40,412 nucleotides of DNA from Deltaproteobacteria bacterium (GTDB taxonomy: Bacteria; Desulfobacterota; Dissulfuribacteria; Dissulfuribacterales; UBA3076): NCBI GenBank assembly GCA_027004715.1, contig JALTHG010000005.1:1-40412 (forward strand), in the 5' to 3' direction. A program made the position numbers and the translations under genes. The notes under the pieces were generated by a model. The model saw only the letters and a list, made by a program, of their open reading frames with translations, was not told where the DNA came from and made no database searches. Below are positions 21,181 to 27,235 of the stretch, piece by piece; the first letter of the stretch is position 1; each line of letters begins with the position of its first letter.

Positions 21181-22121
21181 TGTTAATCCGCACTGAGACC
21201 CTCCAAGATGCCACCAGTGGCCGGCGACGTAAACGGTTACCATTTAAGGCCCTCGTGGTCTTTTTCTTGTTATGTCTATTCGTGTCTCGTGTCTCTCTTG
21301 CCTCAAGGGCTGCAGGTACCTCTATCTGGGACCCTCTTATACAACGTCTGGTAAAAGATGGGGAAAATGGGACGTCAATTCGCCGCATCTTTGCCAGACC
21401 AGAGGTAAAATTTGACCCCAGGGTCATGCCCCGTAAGCTCTCACACAGGGAAAATAGACTCGATTACAGAAAGTTTTTGAGGCCCGAGCGTATTGCAAGG
21501 GCCCGGTCTTTTTTACACAGGAATATGGAGCTCTTGACCCAGATAGAGGACATATATGGGGTCCCAAAGGAGCTAGAGGTGGCAATCCTCCTTATAGAGA
21601 CCGATCTTGGCCATTATCTGGGCTCTGACCTTAGCTTTAATGTATTGGCGAGCATGGCCCTGGCATGCGATTTAGATCGAGTGAGGCCCTGGCTTTCTCC
21701 TGAGGTAATCTCATCTATGGGGACAAGAGACCTGAGAGAGAGACTCAGAAGGAATTCGCAGTGGTCCTATAGAGAGCTTAAGGCACTCATTACTTATTGT
21801 ACACAGAACCGAATTGATCCACTGACGATCAGGGGCTCTATCTTTGGCGCCATAGGGATGTGCCAGTTTATGCCCTCGAGTGCACTCTGTTTTGGAGTTG
21901 ATCAGGACCATAACGGCCGGATAGACCTGTTTTCAAAAGGAGATGCCCTTGCCAGTATGGCAAAATACATCAAATACCACGGTTGGAGACCAGGTCTCAG
22001 CCGCAGAGAACAGGAGGCAGTGATCCTCAAATATAACCACAGTCTCCCCTATGCAGAGACTGTCTTAGAGGTGGCAGACAGGCTCTCTGATCCCCGGAAC
22101 AAAGGGGATGGGTCCAGGTAA
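21159..22121 (+). CDS. MltB-like lytic murein transglycosylase
   Basis: The enzyme would cleave the beta-1,4 bond between MurNAc and GlcNAc in peptidoglycan, forming 1,6-anhydroMurNAc. The catalytic Glu lies in 'VAILLIETDLGHYLGSDLSF', and the family motif 'GAIGMCQFMPSSALCFGVDQ' is present, followed by 'GRIDLFSKGDALASMAKYIK'. An N-terminal signal or anchor ('FKALVVFFLLCLFVSRVSLA') lies after a basic stretch. The track starts at 21042 inside yjbQ. The ATG at 21159 has AGGAG 7 bases upstream, giving 320 residues. That ATG lies in repeat B, so the exact N-terminus is not certain. The 3' end overlaps the convergent folC by 95 bases. Confidence 0.85.
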   Translation: MHKIRVCLLIRTETLQDATSGRRRKRLPFKALVVFFLLCLFVSRVSLASRAAGTSIWDPLIQRLVKDGENGTSIRRIFARPEVKFDPRVMPRKLSHRENRLDYRKFLRPERIARARSFLHRNMELLTQIEDIYGVPKELEVAILLIETDLGHYLGSDLSFNVLASMALACDLDRVRPWLSPEVISSMGTRDLRERLRRNSQWSYRELKALITYCTQNRIDPLTIRGSIFGAIGMCQFMPSSALCFGVDQDHNGRIDLFSKGDALASMAKYIKYHGWRPGLSRREQEAVILKYNHSLPYAETVLEVADRLSDPRNKGDGSR

Positions 22122-23385
22122 AAGACCCCTCCATCAGTTCCTCTCTTACTGCCCCTATAAGGTAGAGCGACCCAGCCACGCAGAGCAGATCTGTCTTGTT
22201 ACAGCTCCCTACAGCCCTGTAGAGGGCCTTCTGCCAGTCCTGCTCCATGACCACCTCATCTGGGACATAGCTCTCTCTCCATCTATCTAATGTGACAGGT
22301 GCCCTTGGGCCAGGCGGCTCTGTGATAATGACCTCTCTGAAAAGGGGGGCTACCTGCCTGAGCATGCCTACAAAATCCTTGTCTCCGCCCTCATCTGTAC
22401 AGCCCCACAAGAGGCTATGAAGCTCTCCTGATTCCAGGAGGAGTCCCTTTAGAGATCTGACACCATCTATGTTGTGGGCCCCATCGAGTAATACCCTACA
22501 GCTCCCATAGAACATCTCTCCTCGGCCTGGCCAGTAGACATCCCTGCATCCCTTCCTGATGGCAGTCTCTGTGATCTCAAATTGTCCAGTCAGGCCCTCA
22601 CAGGCCCCTATGGCAAGGCCGGCATTGGCAACCTGGTGGCTTCCCTTCAGCCCCAGTTCTATCCCATTGATTTTAAAGAGCTTACCCTGATAGTCAAGCC
22701 CCTCTTTCCCTCTCCTTATCTGGATATCGCGGCCAAGTTCCCATAGGGGGGCATTTAGCCTGAGGCACTTTCCCAGGATTACCTCTTTAGCAGGCCCATT
22801 CCCTACACCAGTAACCACTGGTATCTCTCTCTTTATGATTCCTGCCTTCTCTCTGGCTATTTTAGAGATAGTGTTGCCCAGATGGCTTTGGTGTTCTAAA
22901 GAGACATTGGTGATGACAGAGACAAGGGGGACAATTACATTAGTGGCATCCAGCCTACCGCCAAGACCTGTCTCAATGACCGCCAGATCCACCCCTTTTT
23001 CTGCAAACCAGTCCATTGCAATTGCAGTGGAATACTCAAAATAGCTAAGTTCATATCCTCTCTCTACGAAGTGCCTTATCTTCTGGATCTCTCTGGTCAA
23101 TTCTCCTTCAGAGATCATGGTATCTCCTATCCTGAATCGTTCCCTGAGAGATGAGAGGTGAGGTGAGGTATAGAGACCTACTCTATATCCAGCGGCCTGA
23201 AGGATACTTGCTATCATGGCACATGTAGATCCCTTTCCATTGGTCCCGGCCACATGGACAGATGGATAGGTCTCTTCAGGACTACCAAGGGCCTCTAATA
23301 TGCTGACTATTCGCTCAAGGCCCAGGTGAAGGCCATAGAATTGGAATCTGTTTATATAGTTTAAGGCAGATCTATATCCATGCAT
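22027..23385 (-). CDS. folC: Bifunctional folylpolyglutamate / dihydrofolate synthase
   Basis: FolC ligates glutamate to dihydropteroate or folates with ATP. The Mur-ligase-like P-loop is GTNGKGS at residues 47-53, followed by 'LYTSPHLSSLRERFRI' (substrate loop), 'DLAVIETGLGGRLDATN' and 'ITNVSLEHQSHLGNTISKIA'. The C-terminal domain carries 'VLLDGAHNIDGVRSL'. It is 452 residues. The family fold ends near 'LLCVAGSLYLIGAVREEL'. The last ~35 residues are extra and largely encoded in the region overlapping the convergent lytic transglycosylase gene, so they may be a read-through tail after loss of an earlier stop. No strong Shine-Dalgarno sequence is seen. Confidence 0.93.
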   Translation of the reverse strand: MHGYRSALNYINRFQFYGLHLGLERIVSILEALGSPEETYPSVHVAGTNGKGSTCAMIASILQAAGYRVGLYTSPHLSSLRERFRIGDTMISEGELTREIQKIRHFVERGYELSYFEYSTAIAMDWFAEKGVDLAVIETGLGGRLDATNVIVPLVSVITNVSLEHQSHLGNTISKIAREKAGIIKREIPVVTGVGNGPAKEVILGKCLRLNAPLWELGRDIQIRRGKEGLDYQGKLFKINGIELGLKGSHQVANAGLAIGACEGLTGQFEITETAIRKGCRDVYWPGRGEMFYGSCRVLLDGAHNIDGVRSLKGLLLESGELHSLLWGCTDEGGDKDFVGMLRQVAPLFREVIITEPPGPRAPVTLDRWRESYVPDEVVMEQDWQKALYRAVGSCNKTDLLCVAGSLYLIGAVREELMEGSFTWTHPLCSGDQRACLPPLRQSLHRGDCGYI

Positions 23386-23466
23386 AGATAGGTATTTTGC
23401 TAAGTCCCCAATACCCCATTATGAATATCAGGATGTAATTAATCCGTGGTATGATATCAGATTACA

Positions 23467-23512: not shown

Positions 23513-24907
23513 ATGGGTCGTCTATATATCCATATTGCCATATTGACTGTATGTCTGGTCTCTGTATATCAGCCAGGTCTTGCAGGTCTCTCTCTGGGTA
23601 AATCCGGGTGTAGGCGGTGTCATAATGTAGAGATAGACCAGGCACATGACATTGGCTGCAATACATGCCACCATGGAAGGCCTGATGGATATACCATGGC
23701 CCAGGCCCACCAGGGCCTGATCTCTATGCCCTCTCATCCAGCATATATGGCCCGCATCTGTGGAAGGTGCCATGCCAGAGAGGTAGCTGCTGCCCGTACT
23801 TCTATACATTTTACCCTATCAGGTGAGATAGGTACAGTATGGTCTGCCTTTTTCCCTGACGAGCAGGTGCCAGGTCTGTCAGGACTGCCTGTAGAAAAAC
23901 CGATCCGCACAAAAGAGGGTCTTGTCTCAGACCTCCTGAGGAGACGCTGCCTTCGCTGTCATGTCTACTACCGTGGTGATGCATATATGGGCACCCAGAG
24001 GGGGACAGGGTGTGCTGCCTGTCATATGGATATCCAGTCCATACCATGGGACCACAGATTCCACAGGGAGGTCCCTGATTCCCGATGCCTCTCTTGCCAC
24101 TATGGAAACTTTGTCGGCTGGGACTACTATGGCCGATTTGAGACAGATTATCCATATGACTACCGTGCACCACTCGTCAAGGGCAGGCATATGGCAAGGC
24201 CCTATGGTCTAGAATGGCACGAGATGACTCCTGATATACACAAAAAGGCAGGTATGCACTGTACAGACTGTCACCCTTCAGGGCCATGCCAGGGCAAGAG
24301 GCGGCGTGTAAAGTGCATAGACTGTCACCTGAGTGGCAATAGAGGGCCACTGATGGACCAGAGACGCATAGGACACAGACCAGGAGACATACGAGTTGTT
24401 GCCTGTGTTGCCTGTCATGCAGTCTGGTCCTTTCAGGACCAGGGGAGGTCTCTGATCAGAGAAGACCTGGCAGACTATGACGACTGGTCCTATCTATCAG
24501 TCCAGGGAGACAGTGAAGTCGAGAGGATCATAAAGGACTCTATAGACCTGCCATATAGTGAGTGGCCTTTACCCAGGATGCTTGACAAAATCAGTGGCCG
24601 ATATAGAAATGGCATGTGGTTCGAGGGCTTTACCAAGAGGTCCTGGGGCGTAAGGCTCGGAGAGGATAGGCATGGGTGTCTGTCTGTTATGCGTCCCATC
24701 CTGGACCTGTCTCTGAGTTATATAGATTCTGACGATGTGGTGCGTTTTGACAGTCTTCGGCCTGATAGTATAAATGGTCTCTGGCTTCCCTATTCTCCAC
24801 ATACTATAGGCCCTGCCGATGTCTTTAGAACTATCTATGTCAGGTCCTGGTTAGAGAAGAGGGACAAAGAGGTCATCCCAAGGCCAAAAGCTGAAGACAA
24901 AAGATGA
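23513..24907 (+). CDS. Periplasmic nonaheme c-type cytochrome
   Basis: The protein has a signal peptide (MGRLYIHIAILTVCLVSVYQ, cleavage near GLAG) and nine CXXCH haem-attachment motifs: CRRCH, CNTCH, CGRCH, CLRCH, CAACH, CLSCH, CTDCH, CIDCH and CVACH, all within the first ~310 residues. The last ~150 residues have no haem motif and include 'CLSVMRPILDLSLSYIDSDD' and 'LWLPYSPHTI'. It presumably moves electrons in the periplasm of an anaerobe. The layout and phrases such as 'GRCHAREVAAARTS' remind me of multihaem cytochromes linked to Geobacter ext-type clusters, but I cannot confirm that. No quinol oxidoreductase or outer-membrane partner is adjacent. ilvE follows 61 bases later. Apparent promoter: an extended -10 upstream. 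Confidence 0.9.
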   Translation: MGRLYIHIAILTVCLVSVYQPGLAGLSLGKSGCRRCHNVEIDQAHDIGCNTCHHGRPDGYTMAQAHQGLISMPSHPAYMARICGRCHAREVAAARTSIHFTLSGEIGTVWSAFFPDEQVPGLSGLPVEKPIRTKEGLVSDLLRRRCLRCHVYYRGDAYMGTQRGTGCAACHMDIQSIPWDHRFHREVPDSRCLSCHYGNFVGWDYYGRFETDYPYDYRAPLVKGRHMARPYGLEWHEMTPDIHKKAGMHCTDCHPSGPCQGKRRRVKCIDCHLSGNRGPLMDQRRIGHRPGDIRVVACVACHAVWSFQDQGRSLIREDLADYDDWSYLSVQGDSEVERIIKDSIDLPYSEWPLPRMLDKISGRYRNGMWFEGFTKRSWGVRLGEDRHGCLSVMRPILDLSLSYIDSDDVVRFDSLRPDSINGLWLPYSPHTIGPADVFRTIYVRSWLEKRDKEVIPRPKAEDKR

Positions 24908-24968: not shown

Positions 24969-26036
24969 ATGGATATTGAAACTGAACTCCTGGATGAATC
25001 AGAACTCAAAGGGCTTCTCTCTCCATCTGACCTGAGATTTGGTAGATGCTTTTCAGACCATATGTTTCTGATGGACTATAGTGAAGGGCATGGCTGGCAC
25101 CATCCCAGGATAGTACCCTATGGGAACTTTTCTCTTGATCCTGCTGCGGCATCTCTGCATTATGGTCAGGCCATATTTGAGGGACTCAAGGCCTATTGGG
25201 GAAAGGACGGCAAGATCAGGCTATTCAGGGCACGAGACAATATGGAGCGATTCAATCACTCTGCCTGGCGCATGTGCATGCCCCAGATAGACAAAGAGGA
25301 AGTCCTTGAGGGCATAAAGACACTTATTCGCATAGATAGACGATGGGTACCCAAGGCCAGGGGCACTTCTCTCTATATAAGGCCATTCATGTTTGCCACC
25401 GAGGCCTTTCTCGGAGTACGGCCTGCCAGGGAGTACATGCTCTCAGTGATCCTGAGCCCAGTGGGGGCATACTATGCAGAGGGCTTTAACCCAGTAAAGA
25501 TCTTTGTGACAGACAGATATATAAGATCAGCCCCTGGAGGAGTAGGAGAGGCAAAGACAGCAGGAAATTATGCTGCAAGTCTCATGGCCTCTAAAGAGGC
25601 AAAAGAACTTGGCTTTACACAGGTACTCTGGCTTGATGCCGCAGAGCGTCGTTATATAGAGGAAGTGGGTACCATGAATATATTTTTTCTCTTGGAAGAT
25701 ACGCTGGTCACTCCGGCCCTGACTGGGAGTATATTGCCAGGGATCACTAGAGACTCTGTGCTACAACTTGCCCGAGACTGGGGACTCAAGGCAGAAGAAC
25801 GACGGATCAGTATCAATGAGGTCTTAGAAAAGGCAGAGAGGCATGCACTCAAGGAGTGTTTTGGCACTGGCACTGCGGCCGTCATTTCACCAGTAGGGCT
25901 CCTGTATTACAGAGACAGAGGTTATGCAATAAATAGTGGCAGGACCGGGAATCTGGCACAGAGACTCTTTGATGAGATCACAGGCATACAATACGGAGAG
26001 AGAGAAGATATCCATGGCTGGACAGAGGTCATTTAG
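24969..26036 (+). CDS. ilvE: Branched-chain amino acid aminotransferase
   Basis: This fold-type IV PLP enzyme transaminates the last step of valine, leucine and isoleucine synthesis. Motifs are 'ASLHYGQAIFEGLKAYWG', the PLP-lysine region 'GGVGEAKTAGNYAAS', 'VLWLDAAERRYIEEVGTMN' and 'LKECFGTGTAAVISPVG'. The length of 355 residues fits the long bacterial/mitochondrial-like subfamily. The 3' end overlaps the convergent nitronate-monooxygenase-like gene by 8 bases. A GAGAGGATA sequence precedes the ATG at a slightly long distance. No leader or T-box was recognised upstream. Confidence 0.94.
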   Translation: MDIETELLDESELKGLLSPSDLRFGRCFSDHMFLMDYSEGHGWHHPRIVPYGNFSLDPAAASLHYGQAIFEGLKAYWGKDGKIRLFRARDNMERFNHSAWRMCMPQIDKEEVLEGIKTLIRIDRRWVPKARGTSLYIRPFMFATEAFLGVRPAREYMLSVILSPVGAYYAEGFNPVKIFVTDRYIRSAPGGVGEAKTAGNYAASLMASKEAKELGFTQVLWLDAAERRYIEEVGTMNIFFLLEDTLVTPALTGSILPGITRDSVLQLARDWGLKAEERRISINEVLEKAERHALKECFGTGTAAVISPVGLLYYRDRGYAINSGRTGNLAQRLFDEITGIQYGEREDIHGWTEVI

Positions 26037-27144
26037 CCTCTGCTGCTGCCCTTGCAGCCTCTCTATATCCCTGTACCAGTTCATCCATGAGCTCCTGGAC
26101 AGAGACTATCTTGTCTACCCGCCACACATTTGCGCCGCAGAAGACAAAGCCTGAATCCAGATTCCCCTTTTGGGCATTTATAAGGGCCATGCTGATGCAA
26201 TAAGGTGTGTCTGGATAGCGACAGGACTTGAGACACTTATATATGCATCTATGTGGTCTCTTCTCTCCTGCATTGGCCTTGTCTATAAAACTACTTCTGA
26301 GGGCCCTGCCAGGCATGTGTACTGGGCTGTTGATTATACATATGTCCTCTTTCCTGGCCCGGAGATAGGCCTGCTTAAACTCTTCTGAGGCATCACACTC
26401 ATATGTAGCCACAAACCGCGTCCCCATCTGCACTCCAGCAGCCCCCATCTGGATAAATTTATAGATATCTGCACCTGTATAGATTCCCCCTGCAGCGATT
26501 ACCGGTATAGGCCTTCCACATGTCTGTTCAAATGGTCTTACTGCCTCAATGACCTGGGGCACGAGATTTTCTATGGCATTTTCTGGCAGGTCTAGGGTAT
26601 TTGCCTTAAAGCCAAGGTGTCCTCCTGCCTTAGGTCCTTCCACTACAACCGCATCTGGAAGACGTGAGAAGTGCTCAGACCATCTGCGGCATATAATCTT
26701 GGCCGCCCGACCTGAAGAGACAATAGGGACGAGTTTTGCCTTACAGCCCTCTGGAACGAGGCCAGGCAGCTTAAGTGGCAGGCCTGCCCCGCTGATAATG
26801 AGGTCTGCCCCTGCCCCTCCTGCAATATAGACAATCTTTTCATAGTCAGTAAGGGCAACCATGATGTTTACCCCAACAACACCATTGGGAGCTGCCCTTT
26901 TGGCCTGCTGGATCTGCTTCTTTAGGGCACGAAATGTGGATCCACGTGGGTCTTTGTGAAAGTCTTTTTCTGCTATACCGATAAGCACTGAGGCAATGAC
27001 CCCTATGCCCCCAGCCCTGGCTACTGCAGAGGCCAGTCCTGCCATAGATATGCCGACACCCATACCCCCCTGGATAATGGGGATAGGTACAGTAAGATCT
27101 CCTATAGTCAATGGTGGAGGATCAAAAGATGTCTCTTCAGCCAT
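26029..27144 (-). CDS. Nitronate monooxygenase / FMN-dependent NAD(P)H oxidoreductase family protein
   Basis: The protein is a TIM-barrel flavoprotein of the 2-nitropropane dioxygenase family. The N-terminal 'PIPIIQGGMGVGISMAGLAS' (FMN region), 'GVNIMVAL', 'DAVVVEGPKAGGHLGF', 'PVIAAGGIYTGADIYKFIQMGA' and 'GVQMGTRFVAT' are standard. The C-terminal cysteine-rich segment 'RCIYKCLKSCRYPDTPYC' suggests an extra metal or Fe-S site seen in anaerobic members. In anaerobes the true substrate is often unknown. The track starts at 27225; the ATG at 27144 has AAAAGGG and AAGGAG upstream and starts at MAEETS. The longer version would overlap the tRNA-Lys promoter. It has 371 residues from this start. Confidence 0.85.
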   Translation of the reverse strand: MAEETSFDPPPLTIGDLTVPIPIIQGGMGVGISMAGLASAVARAGGIGVIASVLIGIAEKDFHKDPRGSTFRALKKQIQQAKRAAPNGVVGVNIMVALTDYEKIVYIAGGAGADLIISGAGLPLKLPGLVPEGCKAKLVPIVSSGRAAKIICRRWSEHFSRLPDAVVVEGPKAGGHLGFKANTLDLPENAIENLVPQVIEAVRPFEQTCGRPIPVIAAGGIYTGADIYKFIQMGAAGVQMGTRFVATYECDASEEFKQAYLRARKEDICIINSPVHMPGRALRSSFIDKANAGEKRPHRCIYKCLKSCRYPDTPYCISMALINAQKGNLDSGFVFCGANVWRVDKIVSVQELMDELVQGYREAARAAAEAK

Positions 27145-27206
27145 AGATGCCCTTTTAGTCTCCTTGAACAGGGACGTCAAGTAGATGGAAAGTCCATCTA
27201 GTGTCC

Positions 27207-27235
27207 TTGACAAGGTCTTATACACATGATAACGA
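27207..27235 (+). promoter_or_regulatory. Promoter for the tRNA-Lys/tRNA-Glu pair
   Basis: A perfect -35 TTGACA (27207-27212) lies 17 bases before TAACGA (27230-27235), a weak -10. The predicted start is about 60 bases upstream of tRNA-Lys. Confidence 0.4.

Follow-up and report, generated by a model that had tools for sequence, protein, structure and literature searches.

The cytochrome encoded at positions 23513 to 24907 (+ strand) of the window is probably the ExtN-like member of a quinol oxidoreductase of the ExtMNOP type (Rieske protein, cytochrome b, and multiheme cytochromes) whose genes are dispersed. The window comprises the whole of one contig (40,412 nucleotides) from a draft genome of 1.44 Mb. 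For this assignment, the analysis established homology and orthology, co-occurrence, synteny among related genomes, and an in-frame TGA in the gene of a second multiheme cytochrome, and alongside these we infer a physical complex, an electron path and its direction, selenocysteine insertion, and a role for a histidine (H430) in the C-terminal tail.

The gene starts with ATG and encodes 464 amino acids. The sequence-only reading had described nine CXXCH motifs followed by a heme-free C terminus, and this description holds, with no motif past residue 302. The motifs, all on the + strand, start at residues 33 (CRRCH, 23609 to 23623), 49 (CNTCH, 23657 to 23671), 83 (CGRCH, 23759 to 23773), 146 (CLRCH, 23948 to 23962), 167 (CAACH, 24011 to 24025), 192 (CLSCH, 24086 to 24100; followed by a conserved YGNFVGWDYYGRFE stretch), 250 (CTDCH, 24260 to 24274), 268 (CIDCH, 24314 to 24328), and 298 (CVACH, 24404 to 24418). 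The 162 residues after the last motif (residues 303 to 464; 24419 to 24904, + strand) contain no heme site. All nine motifs are kept in every member of a 31-sequence orthologue alignment; the pattern is therefore not due to chance, and the 31 aligned orthologues also rule out a miscalled open reading frame. Seven histidines outside the motifs are conserved (residues 45, 66, 99, 181, 243, 288, and 430; residue 181 in 30 of 31 sequences). H430 (24800 to 24802, + strand) belongs to an SPHT motif within the heme-free tail, is invariant in the 31 orthologues, is also found in the ten-heme, ExtM-like, and ExtN proteins, and is a candidate distal heme ligand. At the N terminus is a signal peptide (23513 to 23584, + strand). 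At least 90% of the 31 orthologues have a cysteine in the lipobox column, and most members of the nine-heme family are lipoproteins, whereas the window protein has Tyr19 (TAT, 23567 to 23569) at this site and thus lacks the lipobox cysteine. The window copy has consequently either lost lipidation or contains a base error; an alternative lipobox, LTVC14, is doubtful, as it would give a very short signal.

Comparison with other genomes places the gene in a class-wide orthologue family, and it is not an orphan. A match to the window protein was found in 40 of 41 genomes searched, in some through a paralogue only, and the tail alone was detected in 39 of 46 genomes of the class (33 of the 35 good ones), always fused in frame to the heme part. 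Complete orthologues have exactly nine CXXCH motifs, as do all 30 loci read from whole genomes of the class, and the nine-heme orthologue family is also present in other families of the Desulfobacterota. Pfam matches bore out the folC and ilvE neighbors named from the sequence: a folC-type gene (Mur ligase; 22027 to 23385, - strand), which is the divergent neighbor throughout the class, and an ilvE-type gene (class IV aminotransferase; 24969 to 26036, + strand), which lies downstream throughout the class. Together with a nitronate monooxygenase-type gene (26029 to 27225, - strand; Pfam), they form a block with the cytochrome gene that is conserved within the class. These neighbors are housekeeping genes, so the context in this lineage is uninformative on function, whereas that in other lineages is informative. 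Outside the class, the gene adjoins genes similar to those for radical-SAM spore photoproduct lyases and rRNA methyltransferases, RNase PH, or RlpA (names assigned from the sequences, without a family search). A viral-contig scan returned nothing.

The suggestion that an extended -10 promoter gives the gene its own regulation found no support. No + strand promoter was detected upstream of the gene in a promoter scan, the promoter-like matches were at the level of chance (2 found versus 2.7 expected), and the TGGTATGAT motif, located at 23447 to 23455, is not conserved among genomes of the same family. Because the ilvE-type gene starts 61 nucleotides downstream on the same strand, cotranscription is as likely as separate regulation.

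A resemblance to Geobacter Ext cytochromes had been suggested in the sequence-only reading and proved to be real. The ExtN/ExtO and ExtM models match the window protein with E values of 2e-20 to 1.5e-17, although these matches lie well below the equivalog cutoffs. The ExtN equivalog (NF040967) gave 73 bits against a cutoff of 200 and calls for ten CXXCH motifs with one after the PHT motif, whereas the window protein has nine, none of them after PHT. The ExtM equivalog (NF040943) gave 63 bits against a cutoff of 800, and the window protein has I396 at the tail cysteine site. A phylogenetic tree separated the nine-heme, ten-heme, and ExtN proteins from the eleven-heme and ExtM proteins with support of 100/95, with ExtN represented by only three sequences on a long branch; the window protein groups with ExtN. 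The nine-heme and eleven-heme families each form one clade, in which the order of lineages broadly matches. The window protein does not belong to the strict ExtN equivalog; our verdict is that it is probably an ExtN-like subunit within a dispersed ExtMNOP-like set. A separate observation concerns NF040968 (FeS_ExtO, 416 positions), which is matched by a ten-heme ExtN-type protein (L103:9962-11206) with 610 bits; the same protein matches the ExtN model with 605 bits. ExtO has been described as a 14-kDa Rieske protein (PMC5877670), and this model thus looks mislabeled.

The housekeeping neighbors had been taken to mean that there is no quinone oxidoreductase partner. That conclusion does not stand: the same genome encodes an eleven-heme ExtM-like cytochrome (contig C22), an ExtP-like cytochrome b (contig C38; 278 amino acids), and a Rieske protein (contig C32; 133 amino acids). 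The four genes lie on four contigs of the draft genome and not in one cluster, and no linkage of the nine-heme gene to the other three was seen in the class loci inspected. Among 297 sampled genomes of the phylum, 33 contain the window family (nine or ten hemes) and 33 contain the eleven-heme family, with both present in 32 of the 34 genomes that have either, across 15 families (Fisher p of about 1e-40, which ignores shared ancestry). These genome sets were drawn by hand, and the co-occurrence is partly due to shared ancestry. The window family co-occurs with Rieske and cytochrome b genes as well as with the ExtM-like gene; cytochrome b was found in all 35 of the good class genomes and the Rieske protein in 34. 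One genome that is 99% complete (G019) has the eleven-heme protein and not the nine-heme protein. In relatives, some of these genes are found side by side. The eleven-heme gene adjoins a ten-heme relative in families f58 and f78, a Rieske gene and a cytochrome b gene precede the eleven-heme gene in f72, f39, and f97, and a Geobacter-like genome has ExtM, ExtN, the Rieske protein, cytochrome b, and an ExtS-like gene together.

The eleven-heme ExtM-like cytochrome is apparently a selenoprotein, with selenocysteine insertion suggested by an in-frame TGA. In the window genome, the gene (L097:1614-3425, + strand) contains this TGA at 2976 to 2978, and standard gene calling splits it in two there. 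The TGA is present in 37 of 39 full-length copies from the class and also in families f39, f72, and f97; a (V/T)PG-TGA-QD context was found in the window genome and eight others, nine sequences that were read in detail. Uninterrupted homologues have cysteine at the TGA position. A frameshift or sequencing error was considered and rejected because the VPG-TGA-QD context is shared, the TGA recurs in these 37 copies and three families, and cysteine occupies the site elsewhere. The window genome also encodes SelB (362.7 bits; cutoff, 242) and a tRNA-Sec (74.4; gathering score, 47). Most of the nine sequences have possible SECIS stem-loops where such elements would be expected, with z-scores of -3.1 to +0.2, and since the individual scores are weak, they are suggestive only. 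The structure model of this protein (pLDDT of 48) was left out of the analysis.

The ExtM-like genes of two class genomes contain no in-frame TGA (L148, from G019:C134, and G023:C59); L148 has cysteine (PGCQ) at the site, which suggests exchange of selenocysteine and cysteine within the class. Several class genomes have a second, lower-scoring ExtM-like cytochrome gene that contains no in-frame stop (G013:C5, G028:C97, G030:C67, and G042:C127) and perhaps belongs to a second module. A 2026 inventory of prokaryotic selenoproteins includes ExtKL, the GSU2204 family, and an octaheme cytochrome (PMC13188914), and the passages available from that inventory name no ExtM-type protein. Provisionally, then, an ExtM-like selenoprotein is apparently unreported.

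In the sequence-only reading, the tail of the window protein was suggested to bind a substrate or a membrane partner; our comparisons show that it is not a new substrate-binding domain. An AlphaFold model (pLDDT of 77; mostly 75 to 95 in the tail) predicts mainly beta strands and a final helix. The tail alone has no Pfam or NCBIfam match, a PDB sequence search with the whole protein gave matches in the heme region only, and a PDB fold search with the model returned nothing at an E value of ≤0.001. These searches would fit an unrelated, newly acquired domain, but such an origin is very improbable and is contradicted by profile comparison, which yielded homology to the tails of the ten-heme, ExtM-like, and ExtN cytochromes at E values from 6e-33 to 1e-5. 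By hhalign, the tail matched the ten-heme tail end to end up to the tenth heme (99.9%, E = 6e-33), the ExtM-like tail around the Cys/Sec site (95.5%, E = 1e-8), and the ExtN tail (81%), while 30 column-shuffled controls reached at most 1.9%. An end-to-end alignment with a well-characterized cytochrome family had been named as the outcome that would overturn the earlier proposal; such an alignment exists, but the family is not well characterized. The PG(C/U)Q or PCQ of ExtM-like tails aligns with RP(I/L/V) in the window family; in the window protein the residues are R394-P395-I396 (24692 to 24700, + strand), with neither cysteine nor selenocysteine. As judged from these alignments, the tail is a worn-down version of the ExtM/ExtN tail that has lost its heme and its cysteine. 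The ten-heme, ExtN, ExtM, and eleven-heme proteins all have a heme after PHT, and the simplest history would thus be a single loss of the last heme on the branch to the nine-heme clade. A tail of this kind more likely serves docking than catalysis.

It is unlikely that the protein is itself a reductase in which two of the nine hemes have no conserved distal histidine and the tail helps to bind sulfur or selenium oxyanions. Such a role would agree with the count of just seven conserved nonmotif histidines and with a cable-bacterium ExtN that was modeled with a pentacoordinated heme (PMC11976967), but the tail, which lacks Cys/Sec and gave no match in the PDB fold search, argues against it, and Met238 or a less conserved histidine may supply the missing ligands. 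Somewhat better placed, though still improbable, is a general periplasmic electron carrier, a heme wire for extracellular or interspecies transfer that is not bound to any bc-type complex. Among the relatives of the organism is Seep-SRB2 (L003), a group that has been placed in the class Dissulfuribacteria, very probably also the class of the window genome, and that has many DIET multiheme cytochromes (PMC10553843). In the class, as in f72, f39, f25, f71, and f83, the gene stands alone amid housekeeping genes. However, the nine-heme family is present in nearly all genomes of the class and in several other families and is thus not tied to syntrophs. Its tight pairing with the eleven-heme cytochrome also counts against a free-standing carrier, and no porin gene was noted near the cytochrome gene.

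In the preferred reading, as an ExtN-like subunit, the window protein would be a periplasm-facing nine-heme cytochrome c, usually a lipoprotein in its family, that takes part in electron transfer. By analogy with bc complexes, menaquinol would be oxidized by cytochrome b and the Rieske protein (ExtP- and ExtO-like), and the eleven-heme ExtM-like cytochrome with its Sec/Cys would be the next carrier in place of cytochrome c1. The nine-heme protein may then extend or branch the heme chain and pass electrons to small periplasmic cytochromes or the outer membrane, with flow in reverse also allowed. Its tail may have been kept as a docking or structural domain and may lend H430 as a heme ligand. 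We put at about even the chance of the more specific proposal that Dissulfuribacterales and Thermodesulfobacteria-like bacteria have a bc-type complex that contains an eleven-heme selenoprotein (Sec in VPGUQD) as its large cytochrome subunit, together with the window protein as the Sec-free sister subunit with a degenerate tail. If so, a selenocysteine beside the heme chain might serve sulfur compound turnover.

A cytochrome that appeared to be a stray is thereby recognized as widely conserved and as part of a complex that likely oxidizes quinol. Its class has sulfur disproportionators and syntrophic sulfate reducers among its members, and where quinol is oxidized in these bacteria can now be tested directly. 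The analysis also points to a selenocysteine-containing multiheme cytochrome, and this apparent selenoprotein partner is the more striking result.

Among the closest known systems is the Rieske/cytochrome b (bc) cluster of Geobacter (GSU2930 to GSU2937), which was proposed by Butler et al. to be the missing bc complex (PMC2825233) and the parts of which were named by Jahan et al. (PMC5877670). Genomes of the class contain all four of its component types, and this uncharacterized ext bc cluster is thereby extended to the class; in contrast to Geobacter, the genes are dispersed in the window genome and the ExtM-like gene has an in-frame TGA. ExtM (GSU2935; 12 hemes) and the eleven-heme ExtM-like cytochrome are homologous to the window protein in both the heme region and the tail. 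They have the tail Cys/Sec and later hemes, whereas the window protein, a paralogue of the eleven-heme copy, has neither. The ten-heme cytochromes of f58 and f78 (L083, L085, L086, and L087) are end-to-end homologues in a sister clade that retain the tenth heme directly after PHT and are encoded next to the eleven-heme gene. ExtN of Geobacter sulfurreducens (GSU2934; 10 hemes), on the same side of the tree, resembles the window protein in having RP in place of PGC in the tail, the PHT motif, and an ExtM-type partner. The window protein differs from ExtN in its nine hemes, with none after PHT, in an added WSFQD...VQG segment, and in a gene that is not clustered, and the lipobox of most members of its family is not obvious in ExtN.
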